Assembly: GCA_025351825.1 (NCBI GenBank)
Contig: JANXVE010000128.1
Location: 1 to 40,336, forward strand
Source: Chamaesiphon sp. 341R_metabat_111
Lineage (GTDB): Bacteria; Cyanobacteriota; Cyanobacteriia; Cyanobacteriales; Chamaesiphonaceae
Direction: 5' to 3'
DNA length: 40,336 nucleotides
In this document: in pieces, positions 7,694-27,870 of the stretch
Layout: each line of letters opens with the position of its first letter
How positions within the stretch are numbered: the first letter of the stretch is position 1
Position numbers and translations under genes: made by a program
The notes under the pieces: model-generated
Databases searched by the model: none
The model's input: the letters and a program-made list of their open reading frames with translations, nothing else
What the model was told of the DNA's origin: nothing

Positions 7694-10120
7694 ATGTCGA
7701 TCGAGCCTACATATTTTGAACGAGATCGTTACGATCTACCATTGCCATCAATTGGGCTAAACCCGAATATCGTCGCCAGGGAAACTACTTTAATCCAAAG
7801 TGTATCGTCAAACTTAGCGTCAGCACAAGCCAGCCTAATTTTTCAAGCTCTCACCCAAGTGCTTACGCCGACTGGTGTGCGGTTCAAATTTGCAGTTCAA
7901 CATCAGCCGCAACCGCCAGCAGATCCCGTCACCAGCGAGCAGACAATTTTGCAGTCTGCGGAGAGCGAACCGCTGCAATATCGATTGTGGGTACGGTGTA
8001 ACTCTACAAAAAGTCTCGACTGTCAAATCCTCGCAGAGCCACTTGCAAAAGTACTTCGCAGCATCGATCTTCAGGGCTTCCAAACTGCCATCGTCGAATT
8101 TTCACGATTCTCTAGCGGGACTAGCAAGTCAGCTCGTCGAGTCGCTGACTGGCGACTAAAAATCGATCTCACGCCGCCCGCCGTTCGGCTCAGAAATTGG
8201 GCGCGATGGGGGGATGTGCAATCGATTGTCAGATTGCTCAATCTCGCGCTGGCACCTAAAGAGATTCAAGTCAGTGCGGTACTCAAAGACCTCACTTTAC
8301 AGCTTTTTTGCACGCTAACCAATCCCCGCGCCGCCAAATCGCCCTCAAAAAAAATTGTTGTCGATACGATTGCCCCGTTGCTGATTTCGCTCACCCCTCA
8401 GGGAATTCAGGGAGCAACTATTCATGGTGTGCAATCGGGTAAACAGGTGGATGTATCTCCGGCTTGGATTCACTGGCTGGACTTACCTGGTTTGGGCAAT
8501 CCTCAGTTGTCGCCGACACCGATCGTTTTAGCTGCGCGTGGCGATCGAGATGCACTCAATTTTATCCTGGAACGGTTGCTCAATCCCGATTTAGAACAGT
8601 GTTTTGCGATCGGTGGTATCCATTTGTCACTACTACGTCGTCAACATCTGATTCATGTAATGAGTGAATCGCCCATTTGTCCGATTCAAAGTCAAGTCGC
8701 AACGACTGTGGTGAAGGTGATTCAACAGTTAGCATGGCCAGGTATTCGTGGAGTCCGAATTCATGGACGGATCGCCGGACAAGCCACCGCACAGTGGACT
8801 TATGGCGTAGATTTTAGTCAGGCACCGTTAGAGTTACCCCCAGTAGCAGTAGAACATCACTTTGTCGTTGAGCCATCCCTACCCAAGATTGGCTGGAGTG
8901 ATCGCGTTGGTAACTACTTAGTCGGAACGGGCATCTGGAAACATCAATTTAGATCTCTAGAAAATAATCAACTAGTTTATGAACCTCAATTTCGCTGGGA
9001 TCGATCGCTATTACTATTAGTAGTTGGATTAGGATTTGTCATAGTTAGCGATCTGGTAATCGGATCTGGATTAGCACCTAATCAAATTACGATCGAAGCT
9101 CCGGAAAAAGCTGTCCAACTATCATTTAATAACTATCTGCTCGAACAGAAACTAGCTCAATATCAACTCCGCTGTACCCAACAGGGCGTACCAGATATTT
9201 TGATCGTCGGTAGTTCACGAGCATTGCGAGGAGTAGATCCAGCAGTACTGAATAAAAATACCAATCTTCAAGTCTATAATTTTGGCATCAATGGCGCGAC
9301 GGCACAAGTTGTCGATCTAATTTTGAGACAACTATTAAAATCCGAACAGTTACCAAAAAGGGTAATTTGGGCAGATGGTTCACGGGCATTCAATAGCGGA
9401 CGGATCGATCGAACCTATGATACGATCGTCTCATCGAGTGGCTATCGCAAATTAGCCCGTACCGCCGGATTTAATAGTAGTAATTCTCCCCTGCTTCAAG
9501 CGCAAAATTTTTTTCAGAATGCTTACCAAGATTTTGATACAGCGATCGATCTTCAGCTTGCAGCGATATCACCAGCCTATCATCATCGCGATCGACTCAA
9601 AGATTTAGTGCGGACTAATGTGCCCGTGGTGGCACAACTTGCCGATAGCGACAATTCCAACTCTAGTCAAGATCCAGCCGCAAGTATCAATGAGCGGGAT
9701 ATTGATGTCGATGGATTTTTACCACTGCAATTACAGTTCGATCCCGCTACTTATTATCAAAAGTATGCCAAAGTTACTGGCGATAGTGATGGTGACTATG
9801 CTGGCTTTCAATTACAAGATCGTCAAGATACTGCCTTACATCAAACTATCGATTTATTAAAAAATAACAAGATTTCGCTAATATTTGTCAATCTGCCATT
9901 ATCAGATATTTATTTAGATAAATCTCGTCGTCAGCATGAAGTAACTTTCAAAACATATATGCAAAAGTTGATGGACTCAAACCAACTTACTTTTATAGAC
10001 ATGGATGGTTTATTAAATACTCGCTACGATCATTTTTCCGACCCCAGTCATCTCAATCAAACTGGCGCAGTTGCCGTCAGTAAATACTTGGCCCAGACTA
10101 ATGTAGTTTCTGAAAAATGA
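7694..10120 (+). CDS. DUF1574-type membrane SGNH-like protein with a large N-terminal repeat region
   Basis: 808 residues in three parts. Residues about 30-375 form a cytosolic region with what look like three divergent copies of a ~100-residue unit; the second and third end in IHGVQSGKQ...W and IHGRIAGQ...W. A transmembrane helix is at about 437-460. The C-terminal part resembles SGNH hydrolase-fold proteins (DUF1574; AlgJ/AlgX/DltD-like): the nucleophile serine in VGSSRALRGVD near 503-513, GINGATAQ, and a C-terminal Asp-x-x-His in DPSHLN near 783. The neighbour overlaps by 4 bp (ATGA) and is an MBOAT acyltransferase, the standard partner for transferring acyl groups to extracytoplasmic glycans. 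I infer an O-acetylation (acyl) module for the polysaccharide built by the genes downstream. Confidence 0.82.
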   Translation: MSIEPTYFERDRYDLPLPSIGLNPNIVARETTLIQSVSSNLASAQASLIFQALTQVLTPTGVRFKFAVQHQPQPPADPVTSEQTILQSAESEPLQYRLWVRCNSTKSLDCQILAEPLAKVLRSIDLQGFQTAIVEFSRFSSGTSKSARRVADWRLKIDLTPPAVRLRNWARWGDVQSIVRLLNLALAPKEIQVSAVLKDLTLQLFCTLTNPRAAKSPSKKIVVDTIAPLLISLTPQGIQGATIHGVQSGKQVDVSPAWIHWLDLPGLGNPQLSPTPIVLAARGDRDALNFILERLLNPDLEQCFAIGGIHLSLLRRQHLIHVMSESPICPIQSQVATTVVKVIQQLAWPGIRGVRIHGRIAGQATAQWTYGVDFSQAPLELPPVAVEHHFVVEPSLPKIGWSDRVGNYLVGTGIWKHQFRSLENNQLVYEPQFRWDRSLLLLVVGLGFVIVSDLVIGSGLAPNQITIEAPEKAVQLSFNNYLLEQKLAQYQLRCTQQGVPDILIVGSSRALRGVDPAVLNKNTNLQVYNFGINGATAQVVDLILRQLLKSEQLPKRVIWADGSRAFNSGRIDRTYDTIVSSSGYRKLARTAGFNSSNSPLLQAQNFFQNAYQDFDTAIDLQLAAISPAYHHRDRLKDLVRTNVPVVAQLADSDNSNSSQDPAASINERDIDVDGFLPLQLQFDPATYYQKYAKVTGDSDGDYAGFQLQDRQDTALHQTIDLLKNNKISLIFVNLPLSDIYLDKSRRQHEVTFKTYMQKLMDSNQLTFIDMDGLLNTRYDHFSDPSHLNQTGAVAVSKYLAQTNVVSEK

Positions 10121-11643
10121 AGTTTATATCTCCAGAGTACGCGATATTTTTATGTCTAACTTTATTCTGTTATTGGCGGGTAGCTCAGACTCAGAATCAT
10201 AAACTATGGGTGATTGTAATCTCTAGTATCGTCTTTTATATCTCTTTTCTCCAAATCCAATATTTTCCAGTTATTCTCATCATGATTCTGGTAAATTATT
10301 GGATTGGCAAGATATTATTAGAGAGCCAAATTATTGAGTACAAAGAGATCCGGGACAGGCTTGGGGAGGAATACTTCCATCGCTGGCTACCCAGAGGTAA
10401 GCAGCAGCGGCGACGAGTATTAGTTGCTGGAATTGTATTTAATATTTTATTATTACTTGCATCTAAATACATCCCATTTTTGCTGACGATTATTGCCCCA
10501 CTCAATCCACAGCAAATTCAACCACTAGCGACGTGGCTGAAGACAAATTTCTTGCCACCACTGGGGATTTCCTTCCTCAGCTTTGAATCAGCCGCCTACT
10601 TAATTGATGTGTACAAAGGCAGTCCCGCCACGGGAAATCTGCTCAAATATGCTGCATACAAATCATTTTTTCCCAAACTAGTATCGGGGCCAATTACTCA
10701 CTACCACCAATTTGCGCCCCAATTAAACAATCTCAAATTTCCATCGAATGAAAGATTGACTGAAGCTGGCTGGTTAATTGCTAGTGGTGCAATTAAGAAG
10801 ACATTGATTGCTGATAACTTAGCGATTTATGTCAAATTAGTATTCGATCCTAGTACACTCGATCGAGCAGGTAGTATCGATCTGTGGTTGGCAATTTTTG
10901 CCTATGGACTACAACTATATCTCGACTTTAGTGGCTATGTCGATATTGTCATCGGCACCTCAATTTTATTCGGAATTAATTTACCCACAAACTTCAATTT
11001 TCCCTACATGAGCACTAGCATCGCTGATTTTTGGCGACGGTGGCATATTAGTCTGGGAAACTGGTTGCGGGACTATATCTATATTCCCCTCGGCGGCTCA
11101 CGGTTGGGATTGGGGCGGACTTGTCTCAATCTATTTGCACTGATGCTAATTTCGGGGATTTGGCATGGTGCTGATTGGGGTTATCTGGTTTGGGGGATCA
11201 TTCACGGGATTGCCTTAATAGTCAACCGTCTGACTGTGACACTGTCTGAAAAAGTCGAACCTCTCGCCGTATTTTGGCGCAGTCGCTGGGGACTTGGATG
11301 TGGCTGGTTATTAACTCAACTGTTAGTATTTGTCGCTTGGATTTGGTTCAGGCTGCCCAATCTCAGCCAGTCTAATTTAGTCTTTAGTCATCTGTGGGGC
11401 TATGCTCGTGATGCTCAATTTACGACTAAGGTATATGTGGAAAGTATTAAGTTAACTGACAGTCAAATTTTGCTAGTCTTAATCGCATTAACGATCTCGA
11501 TGATAATTGCTTATGGATTCGATCGATTACTAAAATTAAACCTCAATTGGCATCTAAAATTGGTGCTGATTCCGGTATGTTTATATATTGTGTCGCTATT
11601 ATCTCCGGCGGAGAGTTTGGCATTTATTTATTTTGATTTTTAA
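10117..11643 (+). CDS. MBOAT family O-acyltransferase (AlgI-like)
   Basis: 508 residues, about ten hydrophobic helices. The MBOAT signature is complete: PLGISFLSFESAAYLIDVY, then FWRRWHISLGNWLRDYIYIP with His310, and ISGIWHGADWGYLVWG with the conserved catalytic His350. Proteins of this type move an acyl group, usually acetyl, from the cytosolic side through the membrane to a periplasmic partner that acylates a polysaccharide (AlgI with AlgJ/AlgX; DltB with DltD). Start ATG overlaps the stop of the DUF1574 gene, so translation is coupled. rmlD follows after 12 bp, consistent with one transcript. Confidence 0.95.
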   Translation: MKFISPEYAIFLCLTLFCYWRVAQTQNHKLWVIVISSIVFYISFLQIQYFPVILIMILVNYWIGKILLESQIIEYKEIRDRLGEEYFHRWLPRGKQQRRRVLVAGIVFNILLLLASKYIPFLLTIIAPLNPQQIQPLATWLKTNFLPPLGISFLSFESAAYLIDVYKGSPATGNLLKYAAYKSFFPKLVSGPITHYHQFAPQLNNLKFPSNERLTEAGWLIASGAIKKTLIADNLAIYVKLVFDPSTLDRAGSIDLWLAIFAYGLQLYLDFSGYVDIVIGTSILFGINLPTNFNFPYMSTSIADFWRRWHISLGNWLRDYIYIPLGGSRLGLGRTCLNLFALMLISGIWHGADWGYLVWGIIHGIALIVNRLTVTLSEKVEPLAVFWRSRWGLGCGWLLTQLLVFVAWIWFRLPNLSQSNLVFSHLWGYARDAQFTTKVYVESIKLTDSQILLVLIALTISMIIAYGFDRLLKLNLNWHLKLVLIPVCLYIVSLLSPAESLAFIYFDF

Positions 11644-13291: not shown

Positions 13292-14164
13292 CTATAGTCC
13301 TTCTGCTGCTAAATTAAGTAAATACTGCCCATAGGCATTTTTTGACATCGTACTCCCGATCGATATTAACCGTTCGGCATCGATATATCCCATCCGAAAA
13401 GCGACTTCTTCGATACAGGCAATTTTTAAGCCCTGGCGTTGTTCGATCGTTTCGACAAAGATCGACGCTTGGAGTAAACTGCTGTGGGTACCTGTGTCTA
13501 GCCATGCCGTACCGCGACTGAGTTTATCAACTTTTAGTTGTCCCAGTTCTAGATATTTTTGATTGACAGAAGTGATTTCTAGTTCACCCCGTGCGGAGGG
13601 CTGGATCTCGTGGGCGATATCAACTACCTGATTGTCATAAAAATATAGCCCCGTCACCGCATAATTAGACTTAGGTTTGGCAGGCTTTTCTTCGATCGAA
13701 ATTGCTGCACCCGCTGCATTAAACTCGACAACGCCATACCGAGCAGGATCGCTGACATAGTAGCCAAACACAATCGCCCCACTAGTTAGCTGTGCGGCTT
13801 GCTGAAGGCTGACGCTCAGGCTATCGCCATAAAAAATATTATCGCCCAGCACCAACGCCACCGCATCATTACCAACGAACTGTTTACCGATGATAAAAGC
13901 TTGCGCTAACCCATCTGGCTGGGGCTGTGGCGCGTAACTAATCGCCAAACCAAGCTGACTGCCATCGCCCAATAACTCTTGGAATGAGGGCAAATCGTGG
14001 GGGGTAGAGATGATCAGGATTTCCTGAATCCCTGCCAGCATCAGGGTAGACAAGGGATAGTAGATCATCGGCTTGTCATAAATCGGCATCAACTGCTTGG
14101 AAATCACCCGCGTCAGGGGATACAACCGTGTACCAGAGCCGCCAGCTAAGATAATTCCTTTCAT
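13292..14164 (-). CDS. rmlA: Glucose-1-phosphate thymidylyltransferase RmlA
   Basis: 290 residues. The nucleotidyltransferase signature is [18 protein letters not shown] at the N-terminus with the [17 protein letters not shown] segment, [12 protein letters not shown] (metal and nucleotide binding), [18 protein letters not shown] and [12 protein letters not shown]. It makes dTDP-glucose from dTTP and glucose-1-phosphate, the first committed step to dTDP-L-rhamnose. ATG overlaps the rmlB stop by 4 bp (ATGA), indicating translational coupling. Length is typical for the short RmlA group. Confidence 0.97.
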
Positions 14165-15228
14165 ACGCCTACTCCCAACCGTTGCTGTTGATATTTGTCA
14201 GTGGTAACTGTGTCACACCAAGCTTGGTTGTCGATGTACCATTGCACCGTTCGCCGCAAGCCCGAATTGATGTCTTCTTGGGGTTCCCAGCCGAGTTGCT
14301 GCTGAAGTTTGGTAAAATCGATCGCATACCGCCTGTCGTGTCCGGGTCTGTCTTTGACGAATTGAATCAGTTGACTGTGGGGGCAATGGGGTGATGCTGG
14401 TAGTAACTCATCCAGGATGGCACAGAGTTGATTCACCAGCCACAGATTATCCCGTTCGGCATTGCCACCGACATTATAGGTTTCACCAGGCGTGCCTTGG
14501 GCTAGCACCAGGGCAATCGCAGTACAATGATCCTCGACATACAGCCAGTCGCGGACATTTTGACCATCCCCATAGACAGGCAGCGGTTTACCTGCAAAGG
14601 CATTGAGAATCATCAGCGGAATCAGCTTTTCAGGGAACTGATAGGGGCCATAATTATTCGAGCAATTGGTAATTAGGGTCGGTAAGTTGTAGGTGTGAAA
14701 ATAAGCCCGAACTAAATGGTCTGAGCTAGCTTTAGAGGCTGAGTAAGGACTATTGGGACTGTAGGGAGTCAATTCGGTAAAGGCTGGCTCTGATGCAGTG
14801 AGAGAGCCAAATACTTCATCGGTGGAAATATGCAGAAATCGAAATTCAGCTTGTGCCGCAGCGGTAAGTTTTTGCCAGTATTGCCGCGCCGATTCTAATA
14901 AATTAAATGTACCATTAATGTTGGTTTCAATAAAACTGGCTGGGCCATCGATCGATCGATCGACATGAGTTTCGGCTGCGAAGTTGACAATTGCCTGGGG
15001 TTGATATCGATCTAGTAAACCATCAATTAAGATGCGATCTCCAATATCGCCCCGAACAAATATCTGCTGTTCGGTAGCAGCAAACTGTGCTACCGTGGCT
15101 AAATTTCCGGCATAGGTCAATTTGTCCAAATTGACCACAACTAGTTCCGTAGATCTGACGATCTGCGCGATAAAGTTCGAGCCAATAAATCCTGCCCCGC
15201 CCGTAACCAAAATACATTTTTTACTCAT
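14161..15228 (-). CDS. rmlB: dTDP-glucose 4,6-dehydratase RmlB
   Basis: 355 residues from ATG at 15228. The open frame extends to 15261, but the extra eleven residues do not belong to the family, and [19 protein letters not shown] is the normal N-terminus. The NAD-binding GGAGFIG is near residues 10-16, the [13 protein letters not shown] motif follows, then STDEVFGS with the active-site Thr-Asp-Glu, and [10 protein letters not shown] with the catalytic Tyr and Lys. It oxidises and dehydrates dTDP-glucose to dTDP-4-dehydro-6-deoxyglucose. It is the first gene of rmlB-rmlA-rmlC; the upstream 680 bp should contain its promoter. Confidence 0.96.
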
Positions 15229-15909
15229 GCTCGATCGGTAAATGATAAATCCCGATCTCAATATACCAGCAGCCCTGACTAATTGGTCATCGCCAGCACC
15301 AACAGGTGGAGCGATGACAATCGAAGGATATGAAGTTTATACTCGCAGGGACGAGAGCCTTTCACCTGTGCAACTATCAGGATGGACAATTCATTTCATT
15401 GAACGTGAAGCTGATTAATGGATAAGCTGTTTGTCATCTAGATTTTCGACTGAATCCCTTGCTGTAAGAGTTGTAGGGGGAAAAAAGAGTGTTTTAAATA
15501 TTTGACAGCTTAGCAGCAAAGGCTGAGTTGAAAAATGTCTAACTATTTGAAAATGGAGAAAGAAGTATTCGGTGACGAATTACTTAAGCTATATGGCGGA
15601 CGACAAAGTGGTTATTGTAGTGAATAATGATTAATGAACAAGCAATTTTCTAACCCATTCAGTGAAAAATGACTAAATTTCAGATCTATCTTACTTATTA
15701 AAACCGTAACAGCATTTTATTGAGATTTTCTAAAAAGGGAGTTTCAAACTACTTGTGATTACAAAATAATAGTAATACAATATATTAGCCACAATCGATC
15801 GAAGAAAGTTACAGATCTTAAGCAAAGTAATTAGACATTAAGCTAAAGTAAAAGGAGCAGAATTCTAAAATTCTAGACTTACGATCCTTTAATTTAGGAG
15901 TTGGATTGG
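15229..15909. other. 681-bp divergent region upstream of rmlB and the first GT4 gene
   Basis: AT-rich sequence between divergent polysaccharide operons. It holds a possible 58-codon frame (15242-15418, listed separately) and a 30-codon frame from ATG 15535. A good Shine-Dalgarno AGGAG (15896-15900) sits 9 nt before ATG 15910. I see no repeats of the types found elsewhere in the window. Promoters for both directions are expected here but I cannot place them with confidence. Confidence 0.6.
15242..15418 (+). CDS. Possible small protein, 58 residues, unknown
   Basis: Open frame of 58 codons from ATG 15242 to TAA 15416-15418, divergent from rmlB by 13 bp. It contains MTIEGYEVYTRRDES and ends SGWTIHFIEREAD. 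I do not recognise it. Composition is protein-like (mixed charged and aromatic residues, no simple repeats), but there is no clear ribosome binding site. It could be a gene remnant or a chance frame; an internal ATG at 15314 would give 34 residues. Confidence 0.25.
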   Translation: MINPDLNIPAALTNWSSPAPTGGAMTIEGYEVYTRRDESLSPVQLSGWTIHFIEREAD

Positions 15910-17106
15910 ATGAAGGGTACAATTTCGATCGATCGATTAGAATCAATTCAATTGAATAGTGGAGCGAAGCGACAACTTCGCATTCTTCATGTCGTCGGTG
16001 GCATGAGTACAGGAGGGATTGAGACATGGCTGATAAATGTACTGAGATCGATCGATCGATCTCGCTTTCACATAGACTTCCTCGTTCATACTGACCAGCA
16101 ATGTTTTTATGATGAGGAGATTCGCGCTCTTGGGGGTAGAGTTATACCCTGCCTGAATCTACGATCTAACCCTTGGCAGTACAGCCGTAACTTCAGCAAA
16201 ATTTTACAGCAGGAGGGACCCTATGATATCGTCCACTCTCACATCCATCACTTTAGTGGTTTGGTGCTGAAACTAGCCTACCATGCCGGAGTTCCAATTA
16301 GGATTTCCCATAGTCATCTCAGTACATCTGGAGTTAGGTTGAAAATAGCTCGAAAGTTGTACTTGGTTTTAATGAATAGGTGGATTCGACTGTACGGCAC
16401 AGTTGGTCTGGCTGCTAGTTGTCAAGCTGCTGCCGACCTATTTGGCTGTAATTGGCAACAAGACCGGCGTTACCAAATTCTCTTTTGTGGCATCGACATT
16501 ACCCCATTTAAGGAAAATTTAGATCGATTTACGATTCGAGCCGAACTAGGAATCGAGCCTGAAACTTTGGTAATCGGACATGTTGGCAGATTTGAAGCAC
16601 AGAAGAACCATCAATTTTTGATCGAGATTGCTGTTAAGGTTGCCCAGCAACAACCTAATATGTGCCTCTTATTAGTTGGCGAGGGTTCATTAAGATCTCA
16701 ACTTGAAGAACAAGTGCGGGAACTTGGACTAGGGGATCGAACTATTTTTACAGGTGCTCGATCTGACATACCACGATTGATGCTGGGAGCGATGGATGTT
16801 TTTGTGATGCCATCACTTTACGAAGGGCTTGGTTTAGCACTAGTGGAAGCGCAAGCGGCAAGACTACCATGTATTGTTTCTGACGTTATCCCATCAGAAG
16901 CAGATCTAGTGGGAGATCTCATTTGCAGACTTTCTTTATCAAAATCACCAGCTACCTGGGCAAAGATGATATTAGAAATGAAGCATAAATCTTTATCGCA
17001 AAGCACCGTACTCTCGATCGTTGAGAATAGTCCTTTCAATCTGACTGTTAGCAATCAAAATTTAATCAAAATTTATCAGTCTAATGACGATTGTTTAGTG
17101 CAATAG
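15910..17106 (+). CDS. GT4 family glycosyltransferase
   Basis: 398 residues from ATG 15910. An in-frame TTG at 15901 abuts the AGGAG at 15896-15900 and is too close to be used, whereas the ATG is at a normal 9-nt spacing. It is a GT-B fold enzyme. The N-terminal acceptor domain has ILHVVGGMSTGGIETWL and DIVHSHIHHFSG. The C-terminal nucleotide-sugar domain has GHVGRFEAQKNHQFLI, VGEGSLRSQLEE and PSLYEGLGLALVEAQA (the EX7E-type motif). It transfers a sugar from a nucleotide donor during repeat-unit assembly on the cytosolic membrane face; donor unknown, dTDP-rhamnose possible from context. It is the first gene of a + strand set with the polymerase and the secreted protein. Confidence 0.93.
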   Translation: MKGTISIDRLESIQLNSGAKRQLRILHVVGGMSTGGIETWLINVLRSIDRSRFHIDFLVHTDQQCFYDEEIRALGGRVIPCLNLRSNPWQYSRNFSKILQQEGPYDIVHSHIHHFSGLVLKLAYHAGVPIRISHSHLSTSGVRLKIARKLYLVLMNRWIRLYGTVGLAASCQAAADLFGCNWQQDRRYQILFCGIDITPFKENLDRFTIRAELGIEPETLVIGHVGRFEAQKNHQFLIEIAVKVAQQQPNMCLLLVGEGSLRSQLEEQVRELGLGDRTIFTGARSDIPRLMLGAMDVFVMPSLYEGLGLALVEAQAARLPCIVSDVIPSEADLVGDLICRLSLSKSPATWAKMILEMKHKSLSQSTVLSIVENSPFNLTVSNQNLIKIYQSNDDCLVQ

Positions 17107-17173
17107 GTATGAGTAATATAAGTAGATATGAATTAACAAAACTTTCTATTAATATTAATATAAAATTTTCACT

Positions 17174-18514
17174 ATGTGGATGATACCGTTCTGGTTTTGT
17201 ATCACATTTATTTCTCTTTATCCTACAGTACAAACTCCAATTTTACAGTTTGATTTAATTTCTTTTTCTAGCAAAGATTTAATTCTTATTACACTCAGTT
17301 GTTTTTATTTACTGCCAGTAATTCGTCAGAATTCGGTTGTATCTTATTTCAAGAAATCATGGTCCAATAGTTTACCCGTTATTACAACAGCAATACTCGG
17401 CTACGCTGCTATTTCAGTGACATGGAGTGGGATGAGATTTCTCGATATGATAATGATGCTATACACTCTAGTTATAACATTTTTTGTATTTCACCTTAGC
17501 TATAATTTAATTGCGAAAATGCCTGTAGGATCTTTGCGACCATTTCTATGGCAGCTTACAGTCTTTATCTCGATAATTTCCTTAGTCTATTTAGCACAAT
17601 CCTTCTTTTCCTTGGATCTAAGAAGTTCCAGTAGTCTGCAAAATGATGAGTTTGGGGTAGACCGAGTACGCGGACCTCTATTTGGATCCAGCACTGGATA
17701 TTTTATGTTGATACCAGCACTTGCCTTCTCAATCCAGGAGATCGCCAATACTACCAGAAAAGAGCCTTTTAAGTGGATTGTAATGCTGATTTTGGGTACT
17801 ACAATTTTATCTCTTGGTTCGCGGGGTGGTGTAGTAATAATTTTAATTTTTATAATTTCATTAATTTTCTTCTTGCGAGATAGAAAACAACGGCTTGTTG
17901 CATATCTAGTCGCGGCTATAATGATGTTAGCAATAACTTTTACAATCCTTGGTGCAACTACAAATACAAACCGTTTTGCTAAGACAGAAAGTGATGGTAG
18001 ATCTGAGACTTATTCAACATCTTTTGAAATCATAAAAAACAGGTCTGTTCTTGATAATTTTTTGGGCTCCGGCTATGGATCTTACTGGCATTGGTACAGC
18101 ATAGATATAGATATCGACGGACACCCTCTGGACGAATCGGTATCAACTAAGTACGGAACTATGCTGTACCACCCTCATTCAACATTTCTTTTGCTCCTTG
18201 TAGAAATAGGTCTCCCTGGGTTGCTTTATTTGTTCAAGTTAAGTCATATCTTACTTAACATGATTTCTAAAAACAATCAAAATACCTCTGGCACGATATT
18301 TTTCTGCGGTGTTGCCACGTCAGGGCTAGGTCTGTTTTTTGACTTCTTTATTTTTAAAAATTGGACAGTCTCGATGATTTGGTTTATATATTTTTTTGGT
18401 GCTTTAGCTTTGATAGTACAATCGGAGAAAGTGATTCTAATCGGGTCACAACAAAAACTACTGGTATTCACTCCTACCAGAAAACAGCAAGCAATTCCTC
18501 TCAGTAAAAAGTAG
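17174..18514 (+). CDS. O-antigen polymerase/ligase-like membrane protein (Wzy/WaaL)
   Basis: 446 residues, about ten to twelve hydrophobic segments. The large periplasmic loop (about residues 270-340) carries many charged residues and ends in YHPHSTFLLLLVEIGLPG, the HxxxL...E.G pattern of the O-antigen ligase/polymerase (Wzy_C) family. LSLGSRGGVVIIL is the other family hallmark. It probably polymerises lipid-linked repeat units in the periplasm. The gene is visibly more AT-rich than its neighbours and the upstream 67 bp is almost all A/T, common for Wzy genes and suggestive of transfer. The next gene starts 13 bp downstream. Confidence 0.85.
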   Translation: MWMIPFWFCITFISLYPTVQTPILQFDLISFSSKDLILITLSCFYLLPVIRQNSVVSYFKKSWSNSLPVITTAILGYAAISVTWSGMRFLDMIMMLYTLVITFFVFHLSYNLIAKMPVGSLRPFLWQLTVFISIISLVYLAQSFFSLDLRSSSSLQNDEFGVDRVRGPLFGSSTGYFMLIPALAFSIQEIANTTRKEPFKWIVMLILGTTILSLGSRGGVVIILIFIISLIFFLRDRKQRLVAYLVAAIMMLAITFTILGATTNTNRFAKTESDGRSETYSTSFEIIKNRSVLDNFLGSGYGSYWHWYSIDIDIDGHPLDESVSTKYGTMLYHPHSTFLLLLVEIGLPGLLYLFKLSHILLNMISKNNQNTSGTIFFCGVATSGLGLFFDFFIFKNWTVSMIWFIYFFGALALIVQSEKVILIGSQQKLLVFTPTRKQQAIPLSKK

Positions 18515-18527
18515 ATAGATTATTCTG

Positions 18528-19784
18528 ATGTTATTAGCAAAAATTATCCCTTTGCATTTCGCTATCCATCGAAAATTTATTTTGGGTTGCATAATAGTAC
18601 TGCTTTTACTAATGATGTACCTCCCGACAAAAGCTGTTGGACCTCAGGAAGCAACAAGGAAGAAAATGATCGAGTATGGCTGGGATGTACCAACTCCTAA
18701 ATTTTTCCGCCAGCATATTAAGGAAATGGAGCAGCGCCCTTTCGATGGCGTAATAATTAAGCTTAATGTAGGTAAAGAGGTTTTCAGGAAAACTGCCTAT
18801 CCAAATGCAGCGTTTACCCAAGACCAAAAAGATCTGGCGGCTACTAAATCATCCCGCCTTACTGATAACTTTGCGATCGTGTGGTCTGGGATGGAGGAAG
18901 GATGGGACTGGTTTAATGATGCTGATTGGGCTAGTGCGGCAAAAAATATTCAGAACTTTGCCAAAACAGCTAAAGCAGGCCGATTTCGCGGTATTGCGTT
19001 CGATCCGGAACCTTACAGTCATACTCCCTGGAAGTATAACGAGCAATCCCAACAGAAAAACAAAACGTTTCAAGAATATCAAGCGCAGGTGAGAAAGCGA
19101 GGTGCCCAGTTTATGAAACTGTTGCAATCGACACAACCTGATACCCAGGTTCTCACACTAGGTTTGCTGAGTTGGATGAAAGCTTTGGTGGTAGAGCCAA
19201 TTGACCCCCCTATATTGCAACAGCAACTCGCCAATCATGATTATGGACTGTGGCCAGCTTTCATTAATGGGATGCTTGATACAACGCAACCAAGTTCCAC
19301 CATTATTGATGGCAATGAAGGCGCATATTTCTTCTATCGTGCTGCTTGGTTTGAAGGAATGCACAATTTAATCCGCAAAGATATACGGGTATTTGTCGAT
19401 CGAATTAACCATAAGAAATATGACAAACAGGTGAAGTTGGGGCAATCAGTTTTTGTAGATCTTGTGCTTGACCTATTTAAAAAGCCAGCTAACAATATTA
19501 ACAACGGCTGGTTTGGGATGAAAATGCCGCATTTTCTCTCGCCAGATGACCGATTACGGTTGTTAGAACATAATATTTACCACTCACTTCGGACAACAGA
19601 TCGATATGCTTGGATCTACAGTGAGAACTTAAACTGGTGGCAAAAAAATATTCCTAAAGGTGCAGAAGAGGCTATTCGGCGTGCCAAGACAAAAATTCAA
19701 ACAGGAAAACCGTTAGGATTTGATGTCGATTCCGTCACCGCAGCAGCTTTGAAAAAGTGTAAAGCCATCAACCCAGAATGTTGA
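18528..19784 (+). CDS. Secreted TIM-barrel-like protein, possible glycoside hydrolase
   Basis: 418 residues. The hydrophobic segment at about 18-33 (KFILGCIIVLLLLMMY) is a signal peptide or anchor, so the body is extracytoplasmic. I cannot assign a named family. Features suggest an alpha/beta barrel: FDGVIIKLNVG, the tryptophan-rich IVWSGMEEGWDWF, then FRGIAFDPEPYSHTPW near residues 152-167, where paired Asp/Glu at a strand end resembles glycosidase active sites, and DGNEGAYFFYRA near 263-274, another strand-end acidic pair. It has many Trp and Tyr residues, as in sugar-binding clefts. It lies 13 bp after the polymerase gene and before a glycosyltransferase, so it may trim, release or control the chain length of the polysaccharide. 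The enzymatic assignment is inference only. Confidence 0.7.
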   Translation: MLLAKIIPLHFAIHRKFILGCIIVLLLLMMYLPTKAVGPQEATRKKMIEYGWDVPTPKFFRQHIKEMEQRPFDGVIIKLNVGKEVFRKTAYPNAAFTQDQKDLAATKSSRLTDNFAIVWSGMEEGWDWFNDADWASAAKNIQNFAKTAKAGRFRGIAFDPEPYSHTPWKYNEQSQQKNKTFQEYQAQVRKRGAQFMKLLQSTQPDTQVLTLGLLSWMKALVVEPIDPPILQQQLANHDYGLWPAFINGMLDTTQPSSTIIDGNEGAYFFYRAAWFEGMHNLIRKDIRVFVDRINHKKYDKQVKLGQSVFVDLVLDLFKKPANNINNGWFGMKMPHFLSPDDRLRLLEHNIYHSLRTTDRYAWIYSENLNWWQKNIPKGAEEAIRRAKTKIQTGKPLGFDVDSVTAAALKKCKAINPEC

Positions 19785-19935
19785 TCCGTGTCAATCGAAT
19801 ATGGTTCAGATTCAGATCTCCACGCTCTTAGATGGCGGAATAGGAGCGTCATCAAATAGATCGGTCAGGGAATAATCTTGTTAGAGAAGCAACAAAAGTT
19901 AATTGTAGTTAATTTATCAATAATCAAATAATCCA

Positions 19936-21147
19936 ATGAAAGTAGTTATTAGTCTCGAACAACGATTCGATCGCACACCAGATGGTAAGGTCTGGACACA
20001 AACAACCTGTGCGTACCCCTTCTGGACGAGGTATTTAGAAGTTTTCGATCTAGTTTCTGTATTTGCGCGGGTCAAGGATGTGCCCAGTGTCCCAGCCGAC
20101 TGGAAACAGGCTGATGGTGAAGGAGTCTCTTTTGCTCCAGTGCCCTACTATATCGGTCCCTGGCAGTATTTACTCAAAGTTGCTCAGATCGAGCGATCGG
20201 CTAAAAATGCTGTACAGAAAGAAGATGCTGTAATTCTGCGAGTATTTTCACCGATTGCGCTCTTTATCAAGCCAATACTCCAACGCACAGGTCATCCCTA
20301 CGCCGTCGAAGTTGTGGCAGATCCTTACGATGTATTTGCACCTGGCTCGATTAAAACATTGCTGCGCCCGTTTCTGCGCCACTGGTTCTTCTGGGTACTC
20401 AAAAGACTGTGTGCAAATGCGATAGCTGCCGCTTACGTGACCAACAAAGCTCTTCAGCAGCGATACCCCTGTCCAAACTTAGCTGTAGGAATTTCTGATG
20501 TGGAGTTGCCTGATGAGGCGATAGTTGCAAGTGCTCGGCCCCAGCAAGATCGATTGCAAACACCGACGCTGATTTATGTTGGTACTTTACAACAGCTCTA
20601 TAAGGCTCCAAATATTTTAATTGATGCTGTCGCTGCTTGCGTAAGCGAGGGATTAGATCTGAAGTTGATCGTAGTGGGATCTGGTCAATATCAACCGCAA
20701 CTAGAGGCTCAATCCGCACGTCTGAATATCGCCTCAAAAGTCCAGTTTTTGGGACAATTAGGGTCTAGTGAGGTCAGGGAATGGATCGATCGATCCGATC
20801 TATTTGTCCTCCCGTCTTACCAAGAAGGTCTGCCCAGAGCAATGGTAGAAGCAATGGCGCGGGGATTACCTTGTATTGGTTCTGCTGTGGGTGGTGTGCC
20901 CGAATTGATCCCGCCAGAGGATCTAGTTCCTCCTGGGGATGTAGCCGCATTAGCGTCGAAAATTAGGGAGATTGTCATGGATCCTGAAAGATTAGCGCGG
21001 ATGTCACAGCAGAATTTGGAAAAATCCAAAGATTATCGGGATCGACTCCTTAACGGACAGCGGATAGATTTCTACCGTTCTGTTCGCAACAGTACGGAAG
21101 CATGGTTGAAACGACCTAACCTCGATCGTTCGATTGAAGTATTGTAA
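19936..21147 (+). CDS. GT4 family glycosyltransferase
   Basis: 403 residues, GT-B fold. The N-terminal acceptor domain has YAVEVVADPYDVFAP. The C-terminal donor domain begins near residue 213: LIYVGTLQQLYKAPNILIDA, LIVVGSGQYQPQLEAQ, VQFLGQLGSSEVREWIDRSD and PSYQEGLPRAMVEAMARG with the EX7E-type pair. It adds a sugar to the growing polysaccharide unit; donor and linkage unknown. A 151-bp gap separates it from the secreted protein, so it may have its own promoter. It converges with the flippase gene. Confidence 0.92.
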   Translation: MKVVISLEQRFDRTPDGKVWTQTTCAYPFWTRYLEVFDLVSVFARVKDVPSVPADWKQADGEGVSFAPVPYYIGPWQYLLKVAQIERSAKNAVQKEDAVILRVFSPIALFIKPILQRTGHPYAVEVVADPYDVFAPGSIKTLLRPFLRHWFFWVLKRLCANAIAAAYVTNKALQQRYPCPNLAVGISDVELPDEAIVASARPQQDRLQTPTLIYVGTLQQLYKAPNILIDAVAACVSEGLDLKLIVVGSGQYQPQLEAQSARLNIASKVQFLGQLGSSEVREWIDRSDLFVLPSYQEGLPRAMVEAMARGLPCIGSAVGGVPELIPPEDLVPPGDVAALASKIREIVMDPERLARMSQQNLEKSKDYRDRLLNGQRIDFYRSVRNSTEAWLKRPNLDRSIEVL

Positions 21148-21264
21148 ATTTGCCTTTGCCTGGGCCATTTTTCTTTTGATTCGATTACCTCCGGTACCCT
21201 ATTACTAGGGCAAACGCTCTGCTACCACGAACGAGGAGTTCGGATTGGCATGTGTGAGGATATT

Positions 21265-22560
21265 TTACTCGGCGGAATACTGGGATTTATTAATTTTGTG
21301 GAAAACATGAAAAATAATTACTAGACTAAATCCAATCTGAACGACAGCACTAACGATCAGTGCAATTGCCGCGCCAATCAATCCTTGAATGGGTACCAAC
21401 CAAAAGCAGCAGATCGCGGAGACACCAGTAGTAACAATAGACAGGGGCATCTGAACTCGAAAATACTGAGCTGCGGTCATTGCGTACCCCAAAAAAGAGG
21501 CGATATAGCCAATGCCCGCAGATACCATTAATAAGATAAATAAGTAGCCCTGCGCTGCATATTCGGGACGATATAACAGCGTCAGAATCTCCCGCCCAGC
21601 AATCGCCGCCATTAAAATCGATAGCCCACCCAGCAGAGCACCTATTAAAAGTGTTTTGAGTACAAGGTTTTTAAAATCTTTAGTGTTGCCTGCTGCATAA
21701 TATTTGGCTAGACGTGGACAGGCGGATTGCCCCAAGGCCCCGATCACAATATTTCCGGCCACCATCAAGTATGATAAAGCGGAAAAGATCCCCAACTCGC
21801 GCTCGCCCAGATAATGTTGGATAAAGTAGCGCGGAATATTGGCGTTGAGCGAAATCAGCATCATCACCAAACCTAATGGTAAGGATAAGCCTACCAGACT
21901 CCGAAGATCTGTGGCGTTGAATCTCGGCTGAAGCACGCGATTTCGATCGGGTGTTACTTGTGTCTGAACTGAAGCTCTTAAAATCGCGACACCATTGGGA
22001 ATATCGTAGCAGATGAGTACGATCGCCCAAATCACAGCTAGCCCGATCGTGCCCCCCAAGACGTTCCCAGTCAGCCAGATACCGATTCCCAACATTAACA
22101 GCGACAGCGGCCCTTTAATCATCAGGGAGATGGCAATCCGATCCATTCGTTCTTGATACTGGAACAGCCCATGAAATACATCGCTAATCGATTCGAGTGA
22201 TTTGGCAACACCAAGAACCAAGATTGTGAGTGCTGTCTCCCACCGATATCCTGCCGTGAACGCAACTATACCGATCGCTAGTAGTGCTAAACCAGTACAG
22301 ACTAATCGTAGTCCCAGATAATCGCCAAATTGATACCTGCGATCGACATCGGTAGTCTGAATCTGGCGTAATTGCAAGTTGGCAAATAACACAATCGGAG
22401 CTGTCACCGCCAATCCCAGGGTAAATTGACCAACCATTTCGGGGCTGCCCAGTTTTGCCAGCACTACCAACATCCCCCATTGAGACGCGGCATAAATAAT
22501 ATTGCCGACAAACGTCCAAGAGAAGTTTTGACGCAGGGTGAGTGATTTTGGTTGGGTCAT
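21265..22560 (-). CDS. Polysaccharide flippase, Wzx/MATE-like
   Basis: 431 residues from ATG at 22560. The frame extends upstream to 22665, but MTQPKSLTLRQNFSWTFVGN is the typical N-terminus, with an amphipathic segment then the first membrane helix. It has about twelve to fourteen hydrophobic helices. The LRQIQTTDVDRRYQFGDYLGLRL segment and the FQYQERMDRIAIS loop fit the Polysacc_synt family that flips undecaprenyl-linked repeat units across the membrane. It is the export step for the glycan made by the genes at 11.6-21.1 kb. It is convergent with the GT4 gene and preceded on its strand by the small membrane protein. Confidence 0.9.
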   Translation of the reverse strand: MTQPKSLTLRQNFSWTFVGNIIYAASQWGMLVVLAKLGSPEMVGQFTLGLAVTAPIVLFANLQLRQIQTTDVDRRYQFGDYLGLRLVCTGLALLAIGIVAFTAGYRWETALTILVLGVAKSLESISDVFHGLFQYQERMDRIAISLMIKGPLSLLMLGIGIWLTGNVLGGTIGLAVIWAIVLICYDIPNGVAILRASVQTQVTPDRNRVLQPRFNATDLRSLVGLSLPLGLVMMLISLNANIPRYFIQHYLGERELGIFSALSYLMVAGNIVIGALGQSACPRLAKYYAAGNTKDFKNLVLKTLLIGALLGGLSILMAAIAGREILTLLYRPEYAAQGYLFILLMVSAGIGYIASFLGYAMTAAQYFRVQMPLSIVTTGVSAICCFWLVPIQGLIGAAIALIVSAVVQIGFSLVIIFHVFHKINKSQYSAE

Positions 22561-22726
22561 AGGTGACGTGTTTAGTTGGGTGAAATCGACAGCAATCGTT
22601 CGCCCTAATCTAATTTTTGTGAGTATCGTGTAATCAAAAAGATTACTCATCTCAATCATACTCACATTTTGCGCTGAGGATGTGAATTTGGAGCGATCTT
22701 GTCGATCGGGTGAGTGGTGGATTGAG

Positions 22727-25391: not shown

Positions 25392-25834
25392 TTTGGGGAA
25401 AGTTTGGGACGGAGGGACGGAGGACGGGGGGATTGAGGGACTGGGAGACGGGGGACTTGGGGAATGTATGTGTTTATGCTGTTTGTTGTGTTCTGAACTC
25501 CCAAATCCCAACTTTATTCAATTGATAAGCTTTATGTTCGATCGAAAAATGAACTAGCAACTATGATATCACAAGCGTTTTGGAGATTCCGATCCGGTAG
25601 CTACAACTCATTCAGCTTTGCTGCACCAGAGGTAATCGACAGCCGCAACCTAATAGTGTCCCCAGTCTCCCAGTCCCCAAGTCCCCAAGTCCCCCCGTCT
25701 CCCAGTCTCCCCGTCTCCCCGTCCCCAAGTCCCCCAGTCCTCCTCGCTCCAAAGACTACTTCTCAAAATTAATTGTCGATCGACTCCAATCTGCCATAAG
25801 ATTTAAAGATTGGTTGTAGTAGATAAAGTTGCCA
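25392..25834. other. 443-bp divergent region with G/C-rich repeat tracts
   Basis: Between the DUF3084 gene and cdaA. Two low-complexity tracts face each other: G-rich at 25393-25466 (GGGACGGAGG, GGGGACTTGGGG types) and C-rich at 25656-25746 (CCCAGTCTCC, CCCAAGTCC units), so they can pair as an imperfect inverted repeat around about 190 bp of ordinary sequence. A 69-codon frame from 25563 is mostly translated repeat and is not called. Promoters for both genes are expected in or between the tracts. Confidence 0.75.
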
Positions 25835-26731
25835 ATGACTTGGGGTATTGGGGTGTCGCAGTTTACAGAATCCTGGTTACGCCAAAGTCTCGACCTAGGA
25901 TTGGTAATTGCCCTCACCTTTATGGTGCTATTGGCGGTCAGAGATCGTCGAACGCTGTGGATGGTGCGAGGGTTGATTGTATTGATGGTAGCCGCAGCGA
26001 TCGCTGAACGGTGTCATTTTCGGCTGTTAAACTTTGCATTGGACAAATTGGTGATTGGAGCTGCACTGGCGATGTCGGTGGTGTTCCAGTCGGAATTTCG
26101 CCGCTTTCTGGAGCAATTGGGGCGGGGGAATCTGCTGCCATCACTCAGTCAAAAAAGACGGGTGGGAGATGGGGCGGATCGATCGATCGATCGAATTGTC
26201 GATGCTGTCAAAGAGCTATCGCAACAGCGGATTGGGGCATTGATGATCCTCGAAACCAATGAAATGATGGACGAGCGAGATTTTGCCGTTCCAGGCGTAA
26301 AATTAGATGCGGAGCTATCCAAGGAATTGATCCAGACCATTTTTCAAAATACTACATTACTCCATGACGGAGCAGTCTTTATTCGGGGCGATCGAGTCGT
26401 GGCGGCGGGAGTGATTTTGCCACTGTCAGATCGGGCGGCTTCCAGGCAGCTAGGCACTAGACATCGAGCCGCGATGGGCATCACCGAACGCACAAACAAC
26501 TGCGTGTGCATCGTCGTCTCCGAAGAGACTGGCTCGATTTCACTTGCTGAAGCTGGCATCCTCGATCGACCCCTGACTAGCAGTAAACTGAAAGAGCTAT
26601 TAGAACTTCGATTTGCACCCATCAGCGAACGTGAATCTGTCAGACCTAGTTTACGCACCTTCGGACGCAAATTCAAGTCTCGCAGTCTATTGCTATTCCG
26701 CCGTCTACTCAAAGTACCAAATCAGAAATAG
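25835..26731 (+). CDS. cdaA: Diadenylate cyclase CdaA
   Basis: 298 residues from ATG 25835; a TTG two codons earlier is less likely. There are three N-terminal membrane helices in the first 85 residues (LGLVIALTFMVLLAV, LWMVRGLIVLMVAAAI, LVIGAALAMSVVFQ). The cytosolic DAC (DisA_N) domain has the LLHDGAVFI motif with Asp178 of DGA, and LGTRHRAAMG with RHR at 209-211, the ATP-binding and catalytic motifs, plus VSEETGSISLAEAG. It makes cyclic di-AMP, which governs potassium, osmolyte and envelope homeostasis and is needed at night in some cyanobacteria. No CdaR partner is adjacent. All catalytic residues are present, so it should be active. Confidence 0.95.
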   Translation: MTWGIGVSQFTESWLRQSLDLGLVIALTFMVLLAVRDRRTLWMVRGLIVLMVAAAIAERCHFRLLNFALDKLVIGAALAMSVVFQSEFRRFLEQLGRGNLLPSLSQKRRVGDGADRSIDRIVDAVKELSQQRIGALMILETNEMMDERDFAVPGVKLDAELSKELIQTIFQNTTLLHDGAVFIRGDRVVAAGVILPLSDRAASRQLGTRHRAAMGITERTNNCVCIVVSEETGSISLAEAGILDRPLTSSKLKELLELRFAPISERESVRPSLRTFGRKFKSRSLLLFRRLLKVPNQK

Positions 26732-27120
26732 GGGGATAGTGAATTGTTGAATGGAAAAGAACTAGATAGACTCACACATTGCACCAGCGATGCGCGCTCC
26801 TCGGGTTTCCCGTTCGTGGAGCGTCTCGTTGGCGTAGCCTCTCGACAGCTAACCGTAGAGGGTACCCATAAAGGGCACCCCTACACAAGTTACCTGTAGG
26901 GGTGCCCTTCATGGGTACCCTAAGATCTACGGTCAGTAGTAGTCTTCACGTATTGGTGCAAGATGTGAGTAGACGAATAAATCGTGAATCGATCGTCGTC
27001 CCCGTAATGTGACGTTCATGAATTGAAGTAAAATATTGTTCTAACAATTTTTGCTACATGTCTCTTGCAATCTCCCAAGCCCCCAAGCTCCCACGCTCTC
27101 ACACCCCCGTACCCTCCCAG
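26732..27120. other. 389-bp gap between cdaA and uppS with an inverted repeat
   Basis: It contains the word GTTCGTGGAGCGTCTCG (26812-26828), whose complement recurs at about 37814-37831. It also has a 27-bp inverted repeat (26859-26885 with 26895-26921, one mismatch, 9-nt loop) that could end cdaA transcription. The 3' part (27073-27118) is a C-rich tract reading up to the chosen uppS ATG. Confidence 0.8.
26859..26921. repeat. 27-bp inverted repeat hairpin downstream of cdaA
   Basis: Arms 26859-26885 and 26895-26921 pair over 27 positions with one mismatch around a 9-nt loop. The core words are GGGTACCCAT and GGGCACCCCTACA. The pairing can extend outward with ACCGTAGA at both ends after a small bulge. 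No T-run follows, so a dispersed repeat is as likely as a terminator. Confidence 0.85.
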
Positions 27121-27870
27121 ATGACCTCCAAAACGACCAGTCTCATCGAACTACCTAGCGATTTAGATTGCACTCAGCTACCACAACACATCGCCGTAAT
27201 CATGGATGGGAATGGTCGATGGGCAAAAAATCGGGGTTTTCCACGAATTATGGGACATCGGCGTGGTGCCGATACGCTGCGCGATCTGCTGCGGTGCTGT
27301 AAGGATTGGGGGATTGGGGCACTGACAGTCTACGCCTTCTCGACCGAAAATTGGGGGAGAACGCTAGAAGAAGTCGATTTTTTGATGACGCTGTTTGAAA
27401 ATCTGTTTCAGTTGGAACTGAAAGAAATGGTGGCAGAGGGCGTGAGGTTAGAAGTAGTCGGGAATCTCGATAATATTCCTGCGTCGCTGTATGATGCGAT
27501 CGACAAAGCTAGAGCAGCCACCGAGCACAATCAAGGTGTGCGGTTTACAGTTGCGATCAATTATGGCGGTAGACAGGAAATTGTGCGGGCTTGTCAGGCA
27601 ATAGCTACTCAAGTTCAACAAGGATCGATCGAGGTTGCCGATATCGACGAGAATTTATTATCAAAACACTTGCACACGGCGCATTTGCCAGATCCAGATT
27701 TATTGATTCGGACTAGCGGCGAAATGCGGATTAGTAATTTCTTGCTGTGGCAATTGGCATATGCGGAGTTCTACGTTACCGATATATTGTGGCCAGATTT
27801 TGACAGACGAGCGTTTCATCAGGCGTTGCTCAATTATCAGCAGCGGCATCGGCGGTTTGGTAAGGCGTAG
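27121..27870 (+). CDS. uppS: Isoprenyl transferase (undecaprenyl diphosphate synthase) UppS
   Basis: 249 residues from ATG 27121, the normal family length. An in-frame ATG at 27058 adds 21 Pro/Ser-rich residues encoded by the C-rich repeat and is less likely. The cis-prenyltransferase motif [17 protein letters not shown] has catalytic Asp29. [31 protein letters not shown] and the C-terminal [20 protein letters not shown] follow. It condenses isopentenyl diphosphate units onto farnesyl diphosphate to make C55 lipid carrier, required for peptidoglycan and for the lipid-linked polysaccharide made by the genes at 7.7-22.6 kb. Same strand as cdaA, 389 bp downstream. Confidence 0.95.

Follow-up and report, generated by a model that had tools for sequence, protein, structure and literature searches.

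As described in the available parts of the respective reports, hydrolases are already known from exopolysaccharide (EPS) loci. The PelA hydrolase (GH166) yields low-molecular-weight secreted Pel, and its inactivation raises adherent biomass (PMC9894940); the C-terminal domain of PgaB (PgaB-C, GH153) cleaves deacetylated PNAG (PMC5933820); PslG is co-transcribed with the psl genes (PMC9075953) and WceF, a β-helix protein, cleaves stewartan to repeat units (PMC7949094). Both the Pel and the PNAG systems are reported to be synthase-dependent (PMC9384988). The groups GHL1-15 have been proposed as likely glycoside hydrolases, and GHL10 includes Cwp19 (PMC5765458), which is described as a lytic transglycosylase (PMC6016235). 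Like PelA, PgaB-C, PslG and WceF, the protein presented here is encoded inside an EPS locus, the polymer of which would be its substrate. In contrast with Pel and PNAG, its neighbour is a Wzy-type protein, and its product is modelled as a (β/α)8 barrel whereas WceF is a β-helix. The family to which it belongs is without description in Pfam, NCBIfam and the PDB sequences.

The window, i.e. the whole analysed stretch of 40,336 nucleotides, comes from a genome of 4.06 Mb whose nearest named relatives, as judged by the barrel protein, are Chamaesiphon and Amazonocrinis. The features of the locus are collected in Table 1. A sequence-only reading had placed the barrel gene between a Wzy-type polymerase and a glycosyltransferase, in agreement with the Wzy_C and GT4 matches obtained in Pfam. 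The spacing of 13 bp to the polymerase was borne out as well, since the Wzy_C ORF (PF04932) stops at 18514 and the barrel ORF starts, with an ATG codon, at 18528; the gap to the downstream GT4 gene is 151 bp. Judging from its homologues, this ORF is a real gene and not a chance reading frame, because four further members of the genus encode near-full-length homologues and relatives are encoded in 135 of 178 pattern-matched stretches. Promoter and terminator scans of positions 15200 to 21400 gave only chance-level counts (17 versus a mean of 14.5 and 6 versus 5.2, respectively), and no transcription unit is therefore claimed for this region. Further to the left lies an rmlD gene (TIGR01214 match above the cut-off), which only hints at the presence of rhamnose in the polymer.

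Table 1. Coordinates in the window of the barrel gene, its notable codons and the neighbouring genes.
Feature	Position	Strand	Basis or remark
Unclassified glycoside-hydrolase-like barrel gene, 418 aa	18528..19784	+	ORF, homologues, AlphaFold2 model
Codons of the N-terminal hydrophobic helix (residues 15-31), predicted signal peptide or membrane anchor	18570..18620	+	model helix
FRGIAFDPEPY codons (residues 153-163), β4 end, with D159 and E161	18984..19016	+	
DGNEGAYFFY codons (residues 261-270), β6 end, with D261 and E264	19308..19337	+	
D311 codon, β7 end	19458..19460	+	
E366 codon, β8 end	19623..19625	+	
Wzy-type polymerase or ligase (Wzy_C), 446 aa	17174..18514	+	PF04932, E 1.5e-14
GT4 glycosyltransferase, further upstream	15901..17106	+	PF00534, PF13692
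GT4 glycosyltransferase, downstream of the barrel gene	19936..21147	+	PF00534, PF13692
Wzx-type flippase (Polysacc_synt)	21265..22665	-	PF01943, E 5.9e-12
ORF of the nucleotide-sugar dehydratase/epimerase kind	14161-15261		left of the GT4, Wzy_C and barrel genes

Two other gene pairs of the window deserve mention. Further left, an MBOAT acyltransferase gene stands behind a DUF1574 gene (7694-11643); the two ORFs overlap by 4 bp, the DUF1574 product (808 aa) has a weak DltD similarity, and the arrangement recalls AlgI/AlgJ-type pairs and may serve to acylate the polysaccharide. At 25829-27870, near the EPS genes, a gene for a diadenylate cyclase (DAC) precedes one whose product belongs to the undecaprenyl diphosphate synthase family.

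The window protein did not match any Pfam or NCBIfam model at E 1, and its comparison with PDB sequences gave no meaningful match (one, E 0.8). When 84 aligned members of the family were searched at E up to 1, 22 Pfam families (best E 0.0073) and 11 NCBIfam families (best E 0.029) appeared, each in one or two members; they were considered as noise, and these weak matches included no glycoside hydrolase model. The PDB chains likewise gave no credible sequence-profile match to the 84 members, RNF146 and the other weak matches being regarded as noise. Three candidate families were tried and rejected. GHL10 (PF02638), GH114 (PF03537) and DUF4434 (PF14488) were all absent from the Pfam families matched by the 84 members at E up to 1. 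In hhalign the family gave a probability of 0.6% against 20 cyanobacterial GHL10 proteins, 0.1% against 5 GH114 proteins (a shallow comparator) and 0.1% against 3 DUF4434 proteins (a very shallow one), the last two sets being likewise cyanobacterial, in a comparison without positive control in which the comparators did not match among themselves either (0.1%, 0.5%). The sequence-only reading had left the protein outside any known family, and the Pfam, NCBIfam and PDB-sequence comparisons are in agreement with this. No description of the family was recognised in the literature within search reach, from which most subscription journals were excluded. Set against Pfam, NCBIfam and PDB sequences, and not against CAZy models, the family is likely to be new as a glycoside hydrolase family.

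The structure of the window protein was predicted by AlphaFold2 from the 84-sequence alignment (pLDDT 93.5, pTM 0.88; an earlier model based on 7 sequences had a pLDDT of 80.4). The predicted fold is an eight-stranded (β/α)8 barrel, with strands at residues 46-51, 74-77, 115-122, 155-159, 207-210, 258-261, 302-309 (broken) and 360-365 and helices between them, so that the expectation of a TIM barrel, which the model could have refuted, withstood the check. The model also contains, ahead of the barrel, the helix expected as a signal or anchor (residues 15-31), and, for the body read as Trp-rich, 13 Trp were counted by eye among the 418 residues. With VIA-align, the best 50 rows had Z scores of 12.5-14.5 over 252-293 residues and were nearly all glycoside hydrolases (GH5, GH164, Cwp19, PgaB-C and a chitinase). 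Cwp19 (5oq3; Z 14.5, rmsd 3.8, 272 residues) and GH5_18 (7lr7; Z 14.5, rmsd 3.8, 274 residues, 10% identity) stood level at the top, the next rows being tied, and PgaB-C (4p7q) followed with Z 12.6 and rmsd 4.4 over 268 residues. The Foldseek matches were weak (best E 1.9e-5, TM about 0.4); among them were GH18, GH5, GH164, GH20 and O-GlcNAcase, along with barrels that are not hydrolases (old yellow enzymes, sugar epimerases and others). The two models had different top matches: GH84 (Foldseek) and GH5_18 (VIA-align) for the 7-sequence model, GH18 and GH5 (Foldseek) and Cwp19 and GH5_18 (VIA-align) for the 84-sequence one. As the structural scores are tied across many glycoside hydrolase families, the protein was not assigned to any of them; the modelled barrel resembles many glycoside hydrolases without fitting any single one. 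The structures of PelA, Sph3 and Ega3, which we take to be EPS-locus barrels, were not among the fold-search matches listed, and this does not count against them.

The conservation of acidic residues was followed in the 84 aligned members, a set that includes near-copies (e.g. L035/L041 and L077/L081). D159 and D261 were kept in all 84, E161, D311, E366 and D358 in 83 and E264 in 81; a separate 84-member alignment gave the same counts for D159, E161, D261 and E264. In total, 7 of the 42 acids of the protein persist in 80 or more of the 84 members. All but one of the seven fall in a zone at the strand C-ends (from one residue ahead of the strand end to five beyond it), in which 10 of the 42 acids are located (hypergeometric P 2.5e-4, residues being treated as independent). 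Among divergent paralogues (14 copies in three genomes), D159, E161, D261, E264 and D311 are found in 14/14 and E366 in 13/14. The few exceptions are one member without E161 and E264 (L069), two copies without E264 (L085) and one member without D311 (L055); the cyanobacterial copy of G053 carries Gln at position 366. The first of these, at L069 7965-9134, combines E161K and E264M and could be an inactive paralogue. The window protein itself retains all six strand-end acids. The two acidic motifs noticed at strand ends, FRGIAFDPEPY and DGNEGAYFFY, are indeed located there; concerning the acids themselves, placed near residues 158-160 and 264-266, the conservation was confirmed (84, 83, 84 and 81 of 84), with sites slightly shifted to D159/E161 and D261/E264. 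A loss of these acids in most homologues, the other outcome that would have spoken against the reading, was thus not seen.

These data are compatible with a predicted active site formed by D159 and E161 on β4, D261 and E264 on β6, D311 on β7 and E366 on β8, to which we give the same odds, somewhat better than even, as to the main reading below. In the clan GH-A, the acid/base Glu is on β4 and the nucleophile Glu on β7. Compared with this clan by strand position, E161 follows β4, β7 ends in Asp311 and extra invariant acids are present on β6. The barrel fold is shared with GH5_18 and the other GH5 enzymes, and the present family has further invariant acids on β6 and β8. GH71 and GH99 possess a D/E-x-x-E dyad; in AnGH71C, residues 193-194 sit in the β6-α6 loop and Asp265 lies about 70 residues beyond them (PMC12394665). 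The D-x-x-E motif of the barrel protein resembles this dyad but, as far as the available part of that report allows, the GH71 dyad seems to be on a later strand whereas that of the barrel protein is on β6. The sequence-only reading had left the choice between a glycoside hydrolase and a lyase. From the predicted fold and the acids, the first part was kept and narrowed to a hydrolase or transglycosidase; the lyase was rejected as improbable because the conserved carboxylates of the (β/α)8 barrel are hydrolase-like.

Among 148 kin genomes, 7 contain a homologue, the window's own included, and five of these, again including it, belong to the same genus. The homologues of the four other genus genomes cover almost the entire protein at 59-68% identity. 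No homologue was matched in four of the eight remaining members of the genus, three of these four being less than 90% complete, and the barrel gene may thus be dispensable. Scanning the GTDB species genomes with sequence patterns yielded 178 matches; a relative is encoded in 135 of them, and the best 80 of the 135 were kept. The seed patterns correspond to residues ~45-53 and ~66-74; these motifs are over-represented among the relatives because the patterns were built on them, and the six strand-end acids lie outside the seeds. The relatives come from Armatimonadota, Abditibacteriota, Hydrogenedentota, Planctomycetota, Verrucomicrobiota, Lentisphaerota, Kiritimatiellota, Omnitrophota, Latescibacterota, Chloroflexota, Deinococcota, Thermodesulfobacteriota and Cyanobacteriota, some records being unlabelled and most of them metagenome bins; that of Thermodesulfobacteriota hardly differs from a Hydrogenedentes record, so that a misbinning is possible. 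The uncharacterised proteins of Armatimonadota, Lentisphaerota, Planctomycetota, Hydrogenedentota and others share 32-43% identity with the window protein and have the same acids.

The family is rare in the window's order, where the 84-row profile matched 10 of 388 genomes, one of them (G642) through a short piece only (E 2e-6); two of the order's matches extend as far as the stop codon that ends their gene. The same profile matched 63 of 151 genomes, some matches being fragments, in a phylum sample of Armatimonadota taken around a Chthonomonas genome, and 13 of 145 in a sample of the phylum built around a Lentisphaerae bin; with the earlier 7-row profile, a cyanobacterial phylum sample gave 1 of 386 genomes, the window's own. 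The Lentisphaerae bin behind L041 (G673; e.g. L148, L153) has 11 matches, some in tandem, and 11 is also the maximum of the Armatimonadota sample (G800). The cyanobacterial genomes of the order survey have one match each; only Amazonocrinis, added to them for the context comparison below, holds two, in a duplicated stretch. In Amazonocrinis nigriterrae CENA67 (NZ_JAECZC010000012.1), this EPS stretch of 17.2 kb occurs twice on one scaffold, in opposite orientation (L009 62208-79428 and L012 15103-32323), as an inverted duplication or an assembly artefact. In a quick unrooted tree (IQ-TREE, SH-aLRT only), six cyanobacterial rows including that of the window formed one set (support 100), the divergent G053, G102 and G510 formed another and distant one (support 100), and Microcoleus (L013) was separate from both, its neighbours being rows of Armatimonadota and Abditibacteriota; 3 changes are needed for the label 'cyano'. 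Judging from this tree, the cyanobacterial copies were likely acquired separately.

Many members carry additional domains. A CBM9-like C-terminal domain was found in 37 of 80 members with a local profile built from six Pfam-matched stretches, and Pfam itself detected CBM9 in 6 of the 9 members scanned; none of the five cyanobacterial members among the 80 has it. In 2 of 10 divergent paralogues scanned, a Glyco_hydro_2_N-like domain was seen, once barely above and once barely below the Pfam cut-off. Ahead of the barrel, 77 of 80 members have a hydrophobic segment. These domains and hydrophobic N-termini point to secreted enzymes acting on glycans, and the window protein is itself predicted to be secreted or anchored in the inner membrane, which we judge about as probable as the main reading of which it forms part.

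The genomic context was compared in ten cyanobacterial genomes (G000, G003, G004, G005, G006, G053, G102, G510, G635 and Amazonocrinis, G669), the G642 piece being excluded. All ten have a GT4 gene no more than a few kb from a full-length copy, and seven (G000, G003, G005, G006, G053, G635 and G669) have Wzy_C within 2 kb, against 4 to 7 Wzy_C matches per whole genome. By its position, the barrel gene resides in glycosyltransferase and Wzy clusters of cyanobacteria, where the suggested co-occurrence with Wzy holds. In G102 and G510, the contig that carries the barrel gene gave no Wzy_C match; about 4.4 kb from the gene, these two genomes encode polytopic proteins (410 and 452 aa) that resemble Wzy in size and hydropathy alone. 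In G004 (L008 6518-7864), a polytopic protein of 448 aa occupies the Wzy position 137 bp upstream; it has no Pfam match at E 1e-3, is Wzy-like by size and hydropathy only, and is a candidate divergent polymerase. The same-strand order Wzy_C, barrel gene, GT4 is common to the window and to Amazonocrinis (Nostocaceae). Among the other four Chamaesiphon loci, three (L010, L011 and L099) have the barrel gene convergent with the glycosyltransferase and Wzy genes, and a shared transcription is therefore not general; at the fourth, the barrel gene stands 137 bp behind a membrane protein that lacks a Pfam match.

Outside the cyanobacteria, no GT4 match was obtained at 74 loci even at E 1e-3, 34 of these loci being shorter than 12 kb and the GT4 profile being derived from ten cyanobacterial proteins; the family as a whole is therefore not a polysaccharide-assembly family. 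No fixed operon partner was seen there among the families listed: in the same-strand neighbour sets, restricted to the first 25 families each and including 3 (upstream) and 2 (downstream) cyanobacterial proteins, no Pfam family was shared by more than 2 of the 37 upstream or 2 of the 32 downstream neighbours. In 111 of the 184 neighbour proteins outside cyanobacteria, the commonest of the first 25 families were URO-D, counted 5 times, and BNR_2, GFO/IDH/MocA and SBP_bac_10, 4 times each (5 for the GFO/IDH/MocA C3 domain); sulfatase occurred twice and NAGLU once. Such neighbours lean only slightly towards glycan use.

Taking the model, the acids and the gene context together, we propose, with a probability of about 0.6, that the window protein is a secreted or membrane-anchored glycoside hydrolase, beyond the Pfam and NCBIfam families, which trims the polysaccharide made by Wzy; catalysis, hydrolysis over transfer, endo action, substrate and physiological role are all inferred. 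After export, the barrel protein would remain membrane-bound or periplasmic. Acting within the periplasm or on the cell surface, it would cut the polymer supplied by the adjacent Wzy, and this cutting would set the chain length, free the chains or clear stalled polymer, a role close to the chain release, length control or remodelling that the sequence-only reading had proposed from the 13-bp spacing. A wider proposal falls somewhat short of even odds: an undescribed glycoside hydrolase family of more than ten phyla with the acid set D-x-E/D-x-x-E/D/E on β4/β6/β7/β8, in which secreted and often CBM9-bearing members of Armatimonadota and PVC-type phyla would be scavengers and separate cyanobacterial branches would have been drawn into Wzy-type assembly as trimming or release enzymes.

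Scavenging of foreign polysaccharides might also be the task of the window protein, its position in an EPS cluster being then incidental. The relatives of Armatimonadota, Lentisphaerota and others probably digest such polysaccharides, as would suit the abundance of the family in these phyla (commonest in the Armatimonadota sample, up to 11 matches per genome there and in the one Lentisphaerae bin), the CBM9-like domains and the BNR_2, GFO/IDH/MocA, sulfatase and NAGLU neighbours, although URO-D and other families without glycan link are also present in the neighbourhood. For the cyanobacterial copies this explanation is unlikely: in three separate places of the tree they have a GT4 gene nearby, the five among the 80 members are devoid of the CBM9-like domain and, the Amazonocrinis duplicate excepted, the copies are single in their genomes. 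Less likely again is a transglycosidase moving the cut polymer onto an anchor or another chain, by which a sheath or capsule would be fixed to the cell. The fold and the acids serve either reaction equally, the adjacency of the polymerase suits a reaction late in the pathway, and the protein might be kept at the membrane by its hydrophobic N-terminus; however, an acceptor is without positive evidence, GT4 is not encoded near most relatives, and many of these bear carbohydrate-binding domains, as hydrolases often do.

The place of Cwp19 at the shared top of the structural list raises the idea of a peptidoglycan-acting enzyme which would open the wall for polymer export. Cwp19 and the barrel protein share the (β/α)8 barrel, Cwp19 having a signal peptide and the barrel protein a hydrophobic N-terminus, but the score of Cwp19 is tied with many glycoside hydrolase rows and, as mentioned above, the control-free hhalign comparison with GHL10 showed no relation. 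GHL10 (PF02638) differs from the present family in its profile and its β6 and β7 residues: according to the available part of the report, GHL10 has Gly at the β7 end and Cwp19 a Tyr on β6, where acids are found here (PMC5765458). We consequently hold such a function to be improbable. The loss of acids in L069 and in the two L085 copies would suit a non-catalytic polysaccharide-binding barrel, a lectin or a scaffold, which seems slightly more improbable still for a window protein with all six acids, each of them kept in 81-84 of the 84 members.

If the trimming hydrolase reading is true, a sizeable and easily tested enzyme family would join the glycoside-hydrolase-like barrels, and its conserved acids make the mechanism open to direct mutational test. 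The non-cyanobacterial relatives, many of them CBM9-bearing and none of their 74 loci with a GT4 match, differ in setting from the cyanobacterial copies; the same barrel in assembly clusters and, elsewhere, probably in scavenging makes the functions comparable. The last steps of polysaccharide assembly in cyanobacteria are little known, and the main text of a phylum-wide survey of these steps, in the part available, has no word beginning with 'hydrolase' (PMC4594306). The barrel protein would be a concrete candidate for these steps.
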